Below, piece after piece: positions 18,351 to 27,774 of a stretch of 64,000 nt of DNA. Within the stretch, counting starts at the first letter, position 1. Every line of letters starts with the position of its first letter. Source of the DNA: Heterostelium album PN500. Lineage: Eukaryota > Evosea > Eumycetozoa > Acytosteliales > Acytosteliaceae. The notes under the pieces are model-generated. The model worked only from the letters and a program-made list of their open reading frames with translations. It did not search any database and was not told the origin of the DNA. The DNA is taken from assembly GCF_000004825.1 (NCBI RefSeq), contig NW_008805065.1:1-64000 (forward strand), written 5' to 3'. A program made the translations under genes and the position numbers.

Positions 18351-19092
18351 TTTCTTAAGCGTGATCATCCCAGATCGATACCAACCTGACCTGACCCAAC
18401 CCGACTATGACAACTCACATTTACTCACTCACCTCACTCACTCACCTCACACCGACCAATCATGATTGGAGCCAACACATCACAGATACAACCAATCAAA
18501 ATAGATATTAGATATATAAATAGAGAGAGAAGGATGTGAAGTAGTTAGTAAAAAAATGATATCAGATGCCAATCAAACAACATTTCAACAATAGCAAAAA
18601 AAAAACCAAAAACCAAAAAAAAAAAAAAAAAATAATAGTAACATCAACACAACACACAACCAAATTTGCATAACATAAAAAAATAGAAATTAGAAAACTA
18701 AAACCAAGTTTACCAACCAAACAACACCTGTTATTGTTTACACAAAACAATTTTGCACTGAAATAAAAAAAAACTATTGTCTAAACTAATATTATTATTA
18801 AATTTCTCTTAATTTTTAAAAAGAATAATGGTATGGATTCCAAAGAATGTTTAGAAAAATAGACATTTAATTTTAAACAATTGTTTCTGATAAATAACTT
18901 TGTCCAGGCTAAAAACTTGAATTTTTAATGAAAATACACAGACTAAAAATCCAATTTTTTGTTTATATAATCTGGGGATAACAGATTATTGATTCATCTA
19001 TTTTTATTATATTTTTATTTATCTTTATTAGAATTAAAATTTATTTCGATCTCTTTAGCAATTAGTCAGTAAAAAAAAACCGAAATATTTCA
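18351..19092. other. Intergenic spacer
   Basis: Non-coding spacer between puf60 and the alpha-kinase gene. It starts with ACTCACC-type repeats (about 18420-18450), then has A-rich tracts (18595-18632) and an A/T-rich region. No gene or RNA feature is recognised. Confidence 0.5.
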
Positions 19093-19853
19093 ATGGAGGT
19101 TCATTCATTTATTTTGTCAGAGTTTCGATTATTGGATATTAGAAATTCCAAAGCTAAATTAATAACCCCTGAGGGAAATAAATCTGTAACAGTAACTTTA
19201 GGAAATTTCATTGGTAAAGGAGCTATGAATTCTGCTTTTCATCTCAAGATTAAAGATGATCCAAAAAAATATGTTGTAAAAGTTCCATTAAAATATCGAA
19301 TGACAAGTGAAGCTATGGTGGAAGATTGCTCAATAATTATTTTTGAAATAGCAAAAAAAATGGCTAACTGTTTCAATAGTAGAGGTGTACCTAAAAAAGT
19401 TAAAATCAATATCCCATCTCTTTTAATTCTTGAAGAGTAAGTAAAAATAATTTTAAATTATGAATAAAAGTTTTTTTAATATTTATTAATTATAACAGTC
19501 TAAGATTTAGGATGGCTGTGGTTGAAGAGTTTTTAGAAGGGGATTATGTAAAGTATAATAATAACAAAGGATGGGTAGATGATAATAGAAACACACCCAA
19601 TGCATTCAGTCACTTTTCATTCATTGCATCCAAGGGACAAATATTAATCGCTGACATCCAAGGAGTAGGACATTATTATACCGATATTCAAATACATTAC
19701 CATAATCCAGAGGAGTTTGGACAAGGTAATCTATCTCATCTTGGAATAGTTGCATTTTTCCAAAATCACAAATGCAATCCAATCTGTGAACAATTGGGAA
19801 TAGCCACCGAGGTAAAAATTAAAACTGGTACTTACCCAAAAGGTTTCTACTAA
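19093..19853 (+). CDS. Minimal alpha-kinase (MHCK/eEF2K family)
   Basis: An atypical serine/threonine protein kinase related to myosin heavy chain kinases and eEF2 kinase. Two exons (19093-19436, 19499-19853) give 232 residues, almost exactly one catalytic domain. Visible features are a glycine-rich GKGAMNSAFHLK, the lysine of YVVKVPLKY, VVEEFLEGDYVKYNNNKGWV, the catalytic/metal segment LIADIQGVG and YTDIQIH, and the zinc-binding end GNLSHLGIVAFFQNHKCN with PICEQLGI. All key residues are present, so activity is plausible. Unlike MHCK-A to -D it has no WD40 repeats or coiled coil, so substrate targeting must come from elsewhere. The start ATG follows an A-rich leader. Substrate unknown. Confidence 0.92.
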
Positions 19854-19932: not shown

Positions 19933-22900
19933 TTATAGAGTAAATATATTTGATTGTTGTCCACCAACCATTATTTGTACATAGTTTGGTAAATTAACAT
20001 ATTGACATGAAACTTCTGTACTGCTTATGAATGATGTACATGTTTCATTGTGATTCGAATAAATTAAATTAATGTATGAGGAATTTGGATTGAATGATAC
20101 ACCAGATTCAACAGGAACAAAGTTATTTCCAACGATTGAAATAAAACCTGAATTTAAATAGTAATTTGTGATCGATGGGGGCAAATAGGAAACTGAGTTA
20201 TTGTTACCCATACTAACTGATTGATTGCTAAGTGATGCAGCTATTGAGAGATTGTATCCTATTCCTGGAGGGATATAGCACTCAATGAAATAGTTGAATG
20301 CAGTACAATCGATTGGCTTTGAATTCAATGTGAATTTTAGATCGGTTGATGAAAGTCCCCAACCAAAACCTTTAATCTGTATTAAACCTCCACGTGTCTC
20401 TACTAAGGTATTATTGAATTGTGTTACTATTGGTGGCAAGTAGCTGAATTGTGATTCAAGCGATTGATCTCCAGCTTGGACAATGATAGGTTGATTTAGA
20501 GTATTGCTATCTAAAACGAAATTGATTGATTGGTCTGTAACGTTACTGATATCAACTTGGAAATCACCTACATATACATTAGGTAATTGTTCCAGGCCAT
20601 TTCCAAATCCACTACCCAAAATAACGATTGTGTCACCAGGATCGCCAGAGCTTGGCGAAAATCCAATAACAGAAGGTCCACTGAAACTAAAGGATTGTGG
20701 TACTACAGAGTTGATGGAAAACTTTGAAGATTGATTATCGACTACCACTCTAATTGTTTTATAGTCACCAATTGCTGGTGGTGTAAGACAAGTGATTGAA
20801 GATGATGTAACTAAAGTAATTGGAGAGCATTCTACGACTTCATCGATCCATACTTGTACTTTAGTTTCGTCTTCACCGAAATTAGATCCAACAACAGTCA
20901 ATAAATCATTTCCAAAACTATTAATTATATCTGGCTGAATATCTGTGATTATTGGTATGTCGTAGGAGAACAAGAAATTGGTTCTTTGGATATTGAAAAT
21001 AGATTGGTCAGTTGATAGGTATATGAGATTTTTAGAGCCAACACCACTTGGAACTTGGCAAACCATTTGGTTTGAAGATAAAAGTAATGAAGATTGGCAT
21101 TGATTGTTATCTCCAATGGAAATGGTCATCGATGAATTAAATCTAATACCGTTCAACGTTATTGGATATCCACCAGCAGTCGATCCAGACAGCTTATCTA
21201 CGGATGTAATGATTGGTCCAACTCCAGAGCATAAAGAATCAAAGTTATTTGATGTAAAATCGTTATAACTTATCATCTTTATATCACACAGTTTAGAATT
21301 TACGGTGGCAATGACAATGCCATCATAATCGCTGGAGATTACACCATTATAGGAACTTGGTTTTTGAAGATAGAAAACTTCTAAATCACCAAATTTTACA
21401 CTTGAGGTTGATTTACTTATTATTATACTTTCCAAAACACCTGTTATTGAAGCAATAGAAAGTGGAGATAACAAAGTGATTCTTGTTCCAGTTGTTCCTA
21501 CTTTCTCGTATGCCAAGTCTATTTGGTCACCGTATCTATCACGATTGGTCTCATCAATGAATTTAATGGGTTGATTATGATATTGGCTAATTGGATCCAA
21601 TATTAATGTTTGGATAGCTTGGCTTTGGTTGGAAATGGTTATCCATTTATCAATTGAATTTTCTAATTTCTCCAATTGATAAACTGTTAGCGCAGCCAAA
21701 CTACTCTCGTTCATTGTCTTCATATAGGATTGTAATAATTGATGAATTCCAGTCTTAATTATTCTTTCATCTGGTTGAAGTGGTGATTGTTGTATTGTTG
21801 GAATATCGGTAGTTGAAAGTTTCATATTTCTGTGAATAAGTATTGAGTCTGTTTTCATCATTGTCATTACTACATCTACATCTGCAAGTGGAGCTGGTGG
21901 ATTGATAATATAATTATTTATCAAGATTGTCTGGAAATTGTTATCGGTGTTGTAAGCGGCATCTACGTAATCAGCAAAATCAGCTAATGACTTGATACCA
22001 TCTTCTTTGGATGTAGTAATGAGAATATTTAATAAATCAGTGACAGGAATTGAATCGGAATCATCTACTTTATCCACTCTTCCAGCAGCACCATTGGCAA
22101 TAGATCCACCCATCCAATCCCAAACTGCAGCAGCTGTTCTTCTAATTGATTGATCAACAGTTGGATTTACCATATCTCCATTACTATATTCATAATCAAT
22201 ATCTTATTAATAATTTTATTCTCTTTTATTTAATATAAGTAATTACTTACTCTGTAGAAATATAAGTTTCAATATTACCAAATACATTGAATGTTGTATC
22301 CATACAGATATCAAAATTTTCATCCTTTGTAAAGAATAAATTCTAGAATAAAAATAAATAGAAGATTAATTAAATTTCCATTCTTTTTAAAAATAATAAT
22401 TATAATAATTACATTATAAAGTTTCTTTGAAATAGCTAAAATAATACCATTTGCCCAGTTTGGATGTTCATCTATTGAATAGATTAATTTCGCTTTATCT
22501 GGAGCACCGGCTTGATTGTAAATGTATTTAAGTGTCATAAAATATGCAACTTCCTCTTCACAAAGGGCATCACTTATTCTTAATATGAAAGGTGTCTCGA
22601 AACGTGGAGTAAGAATAACACCACTAGTATCAACCATGTATTGATATATCTTACTCTTTGCATTTGGAAGTTTAGTTTGGAAAGTGGAGGTAAATTTCAT
22701 CAATTTGAAATCATCGTTGGCTTCCAAATCATAGTTTCTAACTGCTTCCACGTTAGCATAGGGATGTTGGTAGACAGGTGGGAAGTCAGGTGCAACATAT
22801 CCAGCTGGCAATACCCGCTGTATTTGGGTCACACGCGATTTATCTTTGGTACACTCGGTTAGCGCATCATCGTATTCGCAAACCGCTCCAATCTTATCGT

Positions 22901-25900
22901 CGAATGCAATATAGTGAAGTGACATGGTATCGTCGGAAACATAGTTTAGAATATCAATACCCGGTAAATCTGGTGGAGTTGGAAGTACCGATTGTTCACC
23001 GGCTGTCGCAACATTTGCGTGCGAAGTTCTCAGAGCTTTGAGATCCAAGTTGAGATCGTGAGCGTTTGGCATTGTTGCAGCAGTCACTGTTTCAATTTGT
23101 TTTGGAAGCTTTGAAATATGATTGGTAGCAATAAAATCTTTAACCTCTACTAAAATATCGTTTTGCCAGACTGGTCTATCCAATTTAATCGGTTGATCAA
23201 CGGTCAAAAACAACTCGATAGAATCGGCTCTCTTTGAAAAAGTTCCATCTGCTTTAATTGAATTATATGCCCTAACGAATCGATTGAATTGATATACTAA
23301 ATAGGGGTTTTGGAAACATACAGCCCCACCTCCACGACCACCTTGTCCATTATGTCTATTAGTGTCACCAGTGCAGAAATAATTTTCTAATTTAATTAAA
23401 AAAAATAAAAGTTAGTTCTGTTTCTAAATTGAAAATCCTGGAAAATTATTAAAGTTAACAATTGTTTACCATTTGCACTGTATGCATTAGCTCCATATGC
23501 TGGATACATTGGAAATCCAATTTTAGAATGATCTTTAAATTGTATAAATAAATTTTGTTAGTTAGAATGATCTTTAAATTGTATAAATAAATTTACAAAA
23601 ACAATATGTTTACTTACCAGTTTTACTTCCAAAATAAATATTATTGACATAACCACCACCTCCACCTACTGCAGGAGTTGCAAGACCTCTATTAAATTCA
23701 AGATGTGCAATATTTAATACCTGTTCAGTTGGTGAATATTGTACGAGACTCATTCCATACCACATTTCAACAAACATTCTTCGTTTGAAATGGTCTGCGA
23801 TTGGCATCCAAATGTCAATTCCATCATAGATTTTCGCTTTCTTTTGAATGTATGGAGAGAGTGTTGCAGGTCTCGGTAGCGCAATATCTGGATATGGACT
23901 GTTTTTATCATCAAAGCCGGTACCACTTTTCATGAAATAGACGGCATTCAAACCACCACCGATAACGGTTGCCGCTGACTTCCACCAGCATGTATTCTCA
24001 AGATTTAGTGTGTTGGCAACGATTGCGTCACAATCGGCAATTAAATCCTTTTGTGTCTTTTGAACTGGTGACGCTGCGAGTGGAACTCTAGCCGGAAATC
24101 CTTCATAGTAAGCGATAAAGTCATAGAAATATGGATATCGGTTCTGTTGATTCTGGTCGTATGTATCCATACCGGGGAATACTTTTCTATTCGAAAGGAG
24201 ATGAGCATCGTTCCTAATCAAATATTTAGCAATATCCTCCAAATGATTAAAAGAATAACAAAAGAAATGTTGACTCTTGTCTGGTTTTCCAAGGAATTTA
24301 ATGAGCTGAGCTGGATGATTATATGAAAATCCATCCGCTTGATAGGATGGAAAAGCAGGATTTGAATGTTGTACATGTATTCCATTCACTTTTCCAGTGG
24401 GATCTTCATCTTCGAATATCACGAAACCTTTGACGTGTCCATTGCCAACGGTATTAGTGAATTTTGAATTTCCACGACCACCAGCATTTGTTCTTGTATC
24501 GGGTTGATCGTTGATGAATAGATAATAATAATCTTCATATTGTTTGAAGGTAGCTTCGATCGGACTGAAATTAACTTGACCTCTGGCACCAGTGGGATCT
24601 TGAAGGTCATCCAACTTTACCAAACTCTGAGAATTAGAATCCATGTATAAATAGGAACTGCTTTTACTCAATCCAAGCTTATAGATAAACCACCAATCTA
24701 CAGGACTGTTTGTTCCTTCGCCTGAATCTGGTTCCGGTACACCAAGACATGACAGTGCATTGGAAGTGAATGTAATGGTTTCCATAGAGTCTACGGCAGC
24801 GGTAGTGGCATCAGGTTGTACATGTATCTCGACATTGTATACACCTTTGATAATAGCTGGAATATCACAGGTTATTTTGGTATCGTCATTGACAATCGCT
24901 ATGTTCACACATGCCTGAGTACCGACATCGACAGCAATCAAACCAGCGTTAATACCAAATCCATTTCCTGTCAAGGTGAGAGTGTAACCTCTCTTTTCCG
25001 ATCCTTGCTTCGGAACGATTTCATTAATCGATGGACCAATAAACTCTATTTCATGTAATGTTGAAAATTCATGTTCTATACCTTCATGATCTTTCACATA
25101 CAGAATTACATAATAAAGTCCAGGAGTATATGGTGGAATTGTACATGTTATTTGATCGGGTTGAATAGTACATCCAGTCAAATCCATTTCCTTTTCATCG
25201 AATTTAATTGCTGTTACAGTTTGGAGATTTGTTCCATCGATAATAAGATCACCACCACCTTTTGGTGGATTGGTGGTTTGTGACATATCGGTAATAGCTG
25301 GTTCACTATAGGTAAAGGTCAGAGTTGATTTATAATCCATCTTTCTAATTGCGAATGTAATTTCTTTGGCACCAACAGAATCTCCAGCCGGTACGAAACA
25401 TGTGAATTGATTTGCATTGATCTGGAGTAGTCTCTGACATTGTTTATTATCGACAAACACTTGTATTTCCTTACGAAGTACAAGTACCGACAAACCAATT
25501 GGAAAATTAGTACATGTCAAAGTGACGAGAGAAGAAGAGTGTAAGAAACCATTATCTTTGGAAATGGCGGTGATCGATGGTACAATAGTTTCCAATAGCA
25601 CAGGATTACTATCTCCACCATTCGATTTGACAACCAATGTTCTATCACCAACCGGATGCTTACTGGAATCGAAATTAATATATAGAGTGGCGGAAGTTGA
25701 TAGTGGTGTAGTTAAATACTGTATTCCATCGACAAAAACGTTGGTTTCTCTGTGGAATCCACTTCCTTTAACCTCGATCAACCATACACCTTGATTCAAT
25801 ACCTTATCGGGATTGATATTATCGATCTTTGGTTCATAGTAATTGAAAAACGATAAAGACGTATAGATACCACCACCAATGTTTGCTTTGATTTGATAGG

Positions 25901-27273
25901 ACGATCCCAATGGATTACTCATATCGAAAGCAGCTGTTTTACAAACAAACGAACTAGCTTGTAATGTAGTTGGATCTACTGTACATACGGAACCACCGAT
26001 ATCAACTGTAACAACATCCATTAAATGTTTACCAGTTACAGTAATATCAGTTCCACCTACATTTATACCAATATCTGGTAATGATCCGAAAATTTCTGGA
26101 TCTATAAGAGTATATATCAGTTAGTTTTGTTTTGTTTTGTTATGGAATATTTATAAACAAACTTACGATATAATCCAAATTTCTTATCACAGAAAGCAGG
26201 TTGTTTATCTATTGAGATGATTACATCTTGGAATTCTACCAATCCGGCACCAAGGTCGAATATAGTGGTATCACAACTGAGTGCACCGGTTAGTTTGTCG
26301 ACTTGAACATTGGAGCATGGTTGTCCACCTACGGTGATGGTTGAGAGCGATGCACCGTAGATATCGTGGAAATCAGTTCCTTCAATAACGATGTTATGAG
26401 AGAGTCCTGCAACACCGTGATCTGGTCGAATCGATGTAACTACCGGAGCGACATAACTAAATGGATTTGGTGCAATCATTTCCAATTTCGTATAGGTTCT
26501 GACCCTGAGTAGATAATCTCCTGTTTCCATTGGGTCGATATCGGGTATCACCGCTTGAATCTCTGTTGCCTTTACAATGTTGACTTTCAGTGTGATTACA
26601 GTGGCATCACGAACCAATTCCACAACGGGAGGTGTATCATATTGATTGACAATAAAATGTTCACCTTCAATTCTCAATATTCTTGCATTGGCATTTGGAT
26701 AATAGCTATTTGGTGAAAATGATTTAATTGATGGTTCTAATAATATATATTAAAAATTAATAAAATTATATTAGTTAATTTTTATTTGTTGTAGTAAAAG
26801 TAACATTTAATTATATTTACTACTTACCAACATATGTAAATACACCAGTAAAGAAAGGTGGTTTTGAAGGGTCAAAGAAGATTTTAAAGGTGTTTGAATC
26901 GGTATCTAATTTACGTTTACGAGAAGAGGTATCATAGTTTGGTCTTGGAACCTCAAAGGCGTAACCGTCGTCCAGTTCGTACAAAAATTTAAAAGGAGTA
27001 ATACCTGCACTATTTTCAATTTGTAAAATTGGGACACTAAATGGTGGTGCTGGAAAATCATTGCCTCTAATAATGAATCTGGTGAGGTAGTCAGTCAAGT
27101 TAGTGAAAAGTATGTTTAAACAATATAGCTATTATCTATTCTTAAGATAATACATACAAATTACCACCAGTTGCGAAACCTACAAGTTGACTATCAACGT
27201 ATATTGCACTCACTTGTGAAAATAAACTAAAAATAATAAATAGATTTACAACATTATAAGAAGATATTATCAT
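19933..27273 (-). CDS. Secreted IPT/TIG-repeat protein with an embedded DNase II domain
   Basis: Predicted exons: 27273-27158, 27066-26828, 26736-26167, 26101-23618, 23532-23470, 23386-22413, 22342-22251 and 22183-19933, about 2262 residues, in frame throughout. A signal peptide opens the protein (hydrophobic NLFIIFSLFSQVSA). Residues up to about 755 contain successive IPT/TIG domains (for example VTSIRPDHG, INEIVPKQGSEKRGYTLTL). Residues about 758-1198 match DNase II: VDWWFIYKLG, YLYMDSNS, first catalytic HxK in GHVKG, second HxK in DHSK, then FCTGDTNR and GGRGGGAVCFQ. An unassigned region follows, then more TIG domains (about 1835-2262). No transmembrane tail is seen, so it is probably secreted. 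DNase II is an acid endonuclease working without divalent metal. The exon 1/2 junction is the weakest: coding-like sequence upstream of 27066 (LTDYLTRF) may also be exonic. Confidence 0.9.
23523..23595. repeat. Tandem duplication across a 3' splice site
   Basis: Two 34-bp copies (23523-23556 and 23562-23595, period 39 bp), almost identical, inside the DNase II/TIG gene. Each contains the minus-strand acceptor TTTAAAG followed by ATCATTCTAA. Only the copy next to the exon at 23532 keeps the frame; use of the other acceptor meets a TAA after a few codons. Confidence 0.8.
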
Positions 27274-27622
27274 CTTTATAATATTTGTTGTTAAAAAAGA
27301 TGAAAACTATTAAAATAAAATATTGATGATGACATTTTTATAGAAAGAGAAGTCGCGAACGACAACTATTAAAAAGAAATTCGATAATTTCGTGTATCGG
27401 CACAATATGATTTTGATTGGGTGACGGGTTGATTTTGGAATCTATCATTAAATTTATGTTGAGGATATTTTTTCAGAATATTTATAAATAAATTATTAGT
27501 TTTCTTATAAAATAGCAATTAAATTGAATTTAAAATTATTAATAATTTGATTTAGAAATGAATTGATTATTTTTTTTAAATATAATATTAATTTTTTCCA
27601 AAGACAAAAAAGAATCATCATC

Positions 27623-27694
27623 TCCCCTTTGGTCTAGTGGTGAGGATTTTCGCCTGTCACGCGAAAGGCCCGGGTTCAATTCCCGGAAGGGGAG
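27623..27694 (+). tRNA. tRNA-Asp (GUC)
   Basis: 72 bases that fold as a complete cloverleaf. The acceptor stem TCCCCTT pairs with AAGGGGA and is followed by discriminator G. The D-arm carries GGTCTAGTGG (A box). The anticodon stem TTCGC/GCGAA encloses loop CTGTCAC with anticodon GTC. The T-arm CCCGGGTTCAATTCCCGG contains the B box. No intron. Dictyostelid tRNA genes serve as landing sites for retrotransposons, and the next 1.5 kb downstream holds retrotransposon ends. Confidence 0.97.
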
Positions 27695-27774
27695 AAAAAT
27701 TTATTTAAAATTTGTCCGCATGCGAATCGTTGACCACTTATGTAATGTAAGAAGGTTTATCTGTCGAACAGATC

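Follow-up and report, generated by a model that had tools for sequence, protein, structure and literature searches.

Dictyostelid proteins built from TIG repeats are usually counted as adhesion proteins, and a gene of Heterostelium album PN500 in which such repeats stand on both sides of a DNase II domain raises the question of whether its product works as a nuclease or as a recognition protein. The gene lies in the window, by which we mean the whole stretch of 64,000 nucleotides that was analysed (contig NW_008805065.1, positions 1 to 64,000). The features of the gene are the following:

19933..27273, minus strand: predicted TIG-DNase II gene, rebuilt from DNA; 8 exons, 2266 aa
27158-27273, 26828-27078, 26167-26736 and 23618-26101, minus strand: exons 1-4, by splice reconstruction
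23470-23532, 22413-23386, 22251-22342 and 19933-22183, minus strand: exons 5-8, by splice reconstruction
27205..27273, minus strand: putative signal peptide, about residues 1-23; hydrophobic stretch at residue 1, judged by eye
24801..26446, minus strand: N-side TIG array, six domains, residues 220-746; Pfam and local TIG profile
23283..24704, minus strand: DNase II domain, residues 779-1196, interrupted by introns 4 and 5; PF03265 match
24426..24440, minus strand: HxK motif 1, GHVKG, residues 867-871 (His868, Lys870); alignment
23522..23618, minus strand: HxK motif 2, DHSK, residues 1141-1144 (His1142, Lys1144); Asp codon split by intron 4
21220..23282, minus strand: module X, residues 1197-1838 (about 640), without a known family; recurs after DNase II in paralogues
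19948..21216, minus strand: C-side TIG array, five domains, residues 1840-2262; Pfam and local TIG profile; the protein end follows directly

All seven introns of this model are GT-AG, and the spliced frame, which has no internal stop, runs from a signal-peptide-like start through six TIG domains, the DNase II domain, module X and five further TIG domains to the stop codon. Residues 24-219 may hold additional, weaker TIG-like repeats. When the protein was scanned with Pfam, DNase_II (PF03265) was matched in two stretches at 125.6 bits against a cut-off of 23, and TIG (PF01833) at 165.3 bits in six stretches on the N-terminal side of the nuclease and at 115.9 bits in five on its C-terminal side, in both cases above cut-off. 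The sequence-only reading had placed DNase II between TIG arrays in one signal-peptide protein of about 2260 residues, with VDWWFIYKLG, GHVKG, DHSK and GGRGGGAVC in frame, and had proposed a search for the two Pfam families; the scan and the eight-exon model agree on this architecture, the rebuilt protein has 2266 residues, all four strings are present in it and both domains score above cut-off with TIG on either side. That account had missed module X, as well as a family of about 48 loci in which many copies (13 of 34) lack the HxK motifs. Exon 5 (63 nt) bears nearly the whole of HxK2, and intron 4 (23533-23617, minus strand) contains an exact 32-base duplication that repeats the 3' acceptor together with the opening codons of exon 5; splicing to the upstream acceptor copy would give DHSN followed by a stop before HxK2 is complete. 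Nearby on the plus strand, an alpha-kinase domain (PF02816) spread over two frames (19066-19853) lies tail to tail with the gene, and a tRNA-Asp (gtc; 27622-27695) is located about 350 bases upstream of its start codon.

HxK1 of the window protein aligns with 15 bacterial DNase IIs, in an alignment in which the window row ends before HxK2, and HxK2 aligns with the DHSK of L001, a solo DNase II of the same genome. DHSK and DHAK are described as C-terminal active-site strings of DNase II in the available part of PMC4148230. His891, within QHSNP, falls in an alignment column that is invariant in 16 of 16 rows. Porcine DNase II requires His115, His132 and His297, according to excerpts of PMC11430429; their predicted counterparts, matched by position, are His868, His891 and His1142, the pairing of His891 with porcine His132 having been set by position, without the pig enzyme in the alignment. 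The PDB chain 5i3e, which has GHTKG and DHAK in place, matches the profile from the bacterial DNase II alignment at 6e-142; a single-sequence PDB search with the window protein found 5i3e at E 0.001, with HxK2 out of register against another stretch of that chain. In common with DNase II as represented by PF03265 and by 5i3e/5unb (Putative deoxyribonuclease-2), the window protein has the PVDWW start, HxK1 and the third histidine, and with solo L001 it shares HxK2 and the GD-x-NR ... RGGG end. It departs from the PF03265 norm in that the domain lies inside a 2266-residue TIG protein, is about 90 residues longer (421 residues versus 332 in the solo DNase II, with insertions visible in the alignment with L001) and is followed by module X. 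A predicted model of the exon-4 part alone, the rest of the domain lying in later exons, had a mean pLDDT of 40.5.

We searched the genome (32.93 Mb, 39 contigs) and obtained 65 PF03265 matches clustered into about 48 loci, which rules out a unique fusion. Of these loci, 36 were read at least in part, and 34 copies were read at both motif sites; the 12 unread loci are two on C23, five on C27 (C27:317429, C27:345964, C27:350698, C27:356422 and C27:362119), C3:474680, C9:28254, C10:746728, C15:493073 and C15:996629. TIG matches accompany DNase II in 33 of the 34 copies read at both sites, and in 31 of the 34 they lie on the same strand within the sequenced surroundings examined. For L032 and L040 the TIG matches come 2-3 kb further down the same strand; in L001, whose frame is 360 aa long, 1.5 kb of flank holds no TIG match. 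Seen from the other side, 131 of 150 scored TIG matches (from 729 candidates) are no more than 9 kb away from a DNase II match, a range covering at most 2.4% of the genome, although one gene enters this count many times through its repeats, which are not independent. Two DNase II loci occur twice, in opposite orientation and with near-equal scores (C3:16928-22011 and C23:5805-10713), a pattern that would fit either a segmental duplication or a duplicate in the assembly. L010:2501-3037, which lies downstream of a giant frame of the TIG-pseudonuclease type, holds a weak SdrD_B-like stretch (22.7 bits, cut-off 29.7) that may, as a guess, link L010 to colossin-like proteins.

TIG and DNase II stand in one uninterrupted frame in 15 paralogues, seven of which have both HxK motifs. 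These seven (L021, L022, L023, L026, L027, L029 and L031) are closer to the window copy and carry TIG, HxK1 and HxK2 in one frame; the giants L009, L011-L015, L017 and L018 (frames of 1821-4436 aa) likewise join TIG and DNase II, as found by Pfam in six of them and by local profiles only in L012 and L013. In L012, L013, L015 and L018 the single frame has TIG at both ends: DNase II follows the first TIG part, and about 545 residues of spacer separate it from the second. The window copy needs seven introns, so that two or three neighbouring genes might have been wrongly joined by splicing, but against these paralogues we regard such an error as highly improbable. The uninterrupted frames exclude wrong joining for the family, the window copy itself having a spliced model, and Pfam scores this high together with paralogues of the same order in a single open frame exclude chance.

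Module X gave no Pfam match (best 0.098), and against the PDB its first half gave none and its second half a single match at E 2.8. When the second half was searched in the genome, it was found in 27 places: its own gene, 15 further ones scoring more than 200 bits and 11 with weaker scores. Twenty-four of the 27 lie no more than 6 kb downstream of a DNase II match on the same strand. For a 25th (C3:2655847) the preceding DNase II start, in L028, was detected by local profile only, and two on C15 are without a known DNase II match. The sequence that follows DNase II in the giants is related to its counterpart in the L024/L025/L028 group (hhalign probability 99.3, E 1.8e-20). Resemblance of these regions to the window X is confined to the last 60-90 residues (hhalign probability 10, E 0.003; blastp down to 2e-5). 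Across the family, module X co-occurs with TIG and DNase II.

Both HxK motifs are kept in 21 of the 34 copies read at both sites (L001, the window copy, L021-L023, L026, L027 and L029-L042), and neither is present in 13 (the eight giants, L019 minus strand, L020, L024, L025 plus strand and L028 minus strand); mixed copies with only one HxK numbered zero among the 34. Left out of this count are L019b and L025b, read at HxK1 only, and L028b, a local-profile find outside the 48 with the start only. HxK2 of L037, L038, L039, L041, L042 and the window copy was read at an inferred exon start; L037 reads HAK, with the preceding residue unreadable, and in L031, L036, L039, L040 and L042 the His and Lys of HxK1 are kept and the next Gly is not. 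In the giants, site 1 reads SLGKG and site 2 D-[HRK]-S-[HYF], and the six that were aligned show VSWW in place of VDWW and GDY(S/T) in place of GD-x-N. When the motif columns were left out of the tree, a branch with support 99/97 separated the 13 HxK-less copies, all on one side, from the window copy, and on the window side the HxK pair is kept in 20 of 20 TIG-joined copies read at both sites. We left the tree unrooted because long branches (L001, L020, L019 minus strand) meet at that very branch. In our view the motifs were likely lost in a single event, and the family mixes enzymes with likely pseudoenzymes.

Since both motifs are missing in 13 relatives, the family is not used for nuclease activity alone, and the purifying selection seen in recent inactive pairs (dN/dS 0.20-0.36) indicates that the HxK-less copies are not simply dead genes. 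The frames of L035:1850-1876 (in DNase II) and L026:2500-2525 (in X) are apparently broken, and these are apparently pseudogenes or assembly errors, so some copies may be decaying. With both motifs absent in 13 of 34 copies, the window protein might itself be a pseudonuclease that uses the DNase II fold for binding only. A precedent exists in Trichinella spiralis, whose DNase II-like family is likewise very largely expanded, with about half of it excretory-secretory, and where 1 of 125 predicted genes is said to have a predicted active site (PMC4148230, in part). That family differs in that TIG is not mentioned in the available part of the same source, and that here both motifs are kept in 21 of 34 copies. 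The window copy has both motifs and the third histidine and lies across the 99/97 branch from the 13, and we consider a pseudonuclease quite unlikely.

In bacterial and archaeal genome contigs, 164 pattern stretches led to 17 DNase II relatives. All 16 with a complete domain have both HxK motifs, and 15 of these 16 are frames of 345-440 aa; together with the 360-aa frame of L001, this bears out the earlier statement that DNase II usually occurs alone. A local, dictyostelid-trained TIG profile, which is a limited test, detected no TIG near the 17. One planctomycete DNase II (L056:2669-5284) is extended at its N-terminus by about 450 residues that match no Pfam family. Carriage by viruses was considered and dropped, as 34 pattern stretches in viral contigs yielded no relatives by tblastn.

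Expansion of DNase II in dictyostelids has already been published, in that lineage-specific expansions in five species, P. pallidum included, share the GO term deoxyribonuclease II activity, among others (PMC8535579, in part). These expansions probably include the TIG-DNase II family, whose architecture and active/inactive split are not named in the accessible sections of that paper. For IPT/TIG, excerpts list 110 proteins of P. pallidum under cell adhesion (PMC4931340 Table 4) and an expanded family (PMC4334915). We found no description of TIG-DNase II proteins in the open-licence PMC literature, as far as its texts were accessible, nor did we find there the split into active and inactive copies; domain databases may well list the architecture.

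A hydropathy scan of the window protein found the N-terminal stretch to be the only one over threshold. The proteins of the window copy, L021, L022, L023, L026 and L027 share their end point to within a few residues, directly behind the last TIG, and hydropathy showed no anchor in any of these six complete C-termini. Hydropathy likewise detected no membrane or GPI anchor in the window protein. The last frame of L027 has one hydrophobic stretch from frame residue 3, which is probably intron read-through since it is placed ahead of the start of the X match at residue 55. The suggestion of a surface-bound protein is not supported, as by hydropathy no membrane segment follows the start and five relatives end at the same place. 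C-termini that end after the last TIG without an anchor argue for a soluble exported protein.

The Tgr proteins of Dictyostelium (TgrB1/TgrC1) resemble the window protein in having TIG/IPT repeats in a large exported protein, and their TIG domains mediate cell-cell binding (PMC12324515, in part). The window protein might accordingly be a recognition or adhesion protein of this type, with TIG binding other amoebae and the nuclease domain incidental, in keeping with the filing of IPT/TIG proteins under cell adhesion. Tgr proteins, however, are transmembrane in the available part of PMC12324515, whereas by hydropathy the window protein lacks a Tgr-type transmembrane segment and cytoplasmic tail, and it carries an enzyme domain; the six C-termini that end after the last TIG and the HxK pair kept in all 20 window-side TIG-joined copies also speak against an incidental nuclease. 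We hold a Tgr-like function to be unlikely, and the hydropathy data argue for an exported protein that is not a Tgr-like receptor. Extracellular and lysosomal locations are indistinguishable from sequence.

Collectively, we propose, at a probability of roughly 0.55, that the product of the window gene is a DNase II-type acid nuclease set in a TIG scaffold, exported and not bound to a membrane. Within the large family of enzymes and pseudoenzymes in this dictyostelid genome it would be one of the catalytically competent members, and it is probably an active exported nuclease. If it follows the chemistry known for DNase II, the HxK motifs, one from each half-domain, would form one active site, which would cut DNA, perhaps RNA, at acid pH via a covalent histidine intermediate and leave a 3'-phosphate. 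The TIG arrays could serve as spacer and as binding part, keeping the enzyme attached to cell surfaces, matrix or engulfed bacteria. The enzyme may act on DNA of bacterial or other foreign origin, either within the phagolysosome or immediately outside the cell, with the HxK-less copies possibly acting as binding or structural modules. Alternatively, the secreted nuclease might trim or recycle the amoeba's own extracellular DNA, for example in DNA nets or dying stalk cells. S cells of D. discoideum cast DNA nets that are digestible by DNase I (PMC4773522, in part), and a secreted DNase II could act on nets likewise. These nets were studied in another species, though, and the sequence gives no pointer to own over foreign DNA, which leaves a role on own DNA improbable in our view.

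The most unusual signal came from a recent pair of catalytic copies, L027/L029 (L027:4149-6830 and L029:69-2750, frames intact). Their TIG parts differ by 8 amino-acid-changing and 12 silent differences and their DNase II parts by about 37 and 7, respectively, so that at similar dS (0.037 for TIG, 0.027 for DNase II) dN/dS is 0.21 for TIG versus 1.39 for DNase II (Fisher p 8e-4, from rounded counts). With HxK unchanged, the charge of the DNase II part has shifted by +14 (13 changes up, 2 down; sign test p 0.007), and the shift is significant in this pair only. The value of 1.39 is not significantly above 1 (p 0.26). Other recent catalytic pairs, given by locus number, have DNase II dN/dS of 0.94 (21/26) and 0.92 (38/41, middle part), and recent inactive pairs have 0.20 (12/13), 0.36 (17/18) and 0.25 (24/25); pooled, 27/29 and 21/26 differ from the three inactive pairs with a Fisher p of 2.6e-4.

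The other pairs do not all agree, and we treat the L027/L029 contrast as a lead. Older catalytic pairs are low in DNase II (0.17 in 21/22, 0.19 in 30/32 and 0.43 in 19b/40), and a general claim of positive selection was not upheld. In pair 30/32 the part before DNase II is higher (0.45), pair 32/34 is saturated, the contrast within 21/26 is weak (TIG 0.72 versus DNase II 0.94), and the overlap of changed sites between pairs is marginal (0.04, 0.06 and 0.02 by circular shift). All these recent-pair comparisons cover other copies than that of the window, whose nearest paralogue is at 55%. A speculative extension, which we rate as doubtful, would be a secreted nuclease/pseudonuclease system in which the TIG scaffold is conserved, the catalytic DNase II surface diversifies under conflict with prey, phage, a competitor or an inhibitor, and the inactive giants act as partners or decoys.

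Most scored TIG matches in this genome lie near DNase II, and the DNase II copies read fall into a set with and a set without an intact active site, which would alter the reading of the TIG expansion. In amoebae that feed on bacteria and belong to a group with genetic tools, enzymes and pseudoenzymes can here be compared in a natural setting, and the purpose of the DNase II expansions becomes directly testable.
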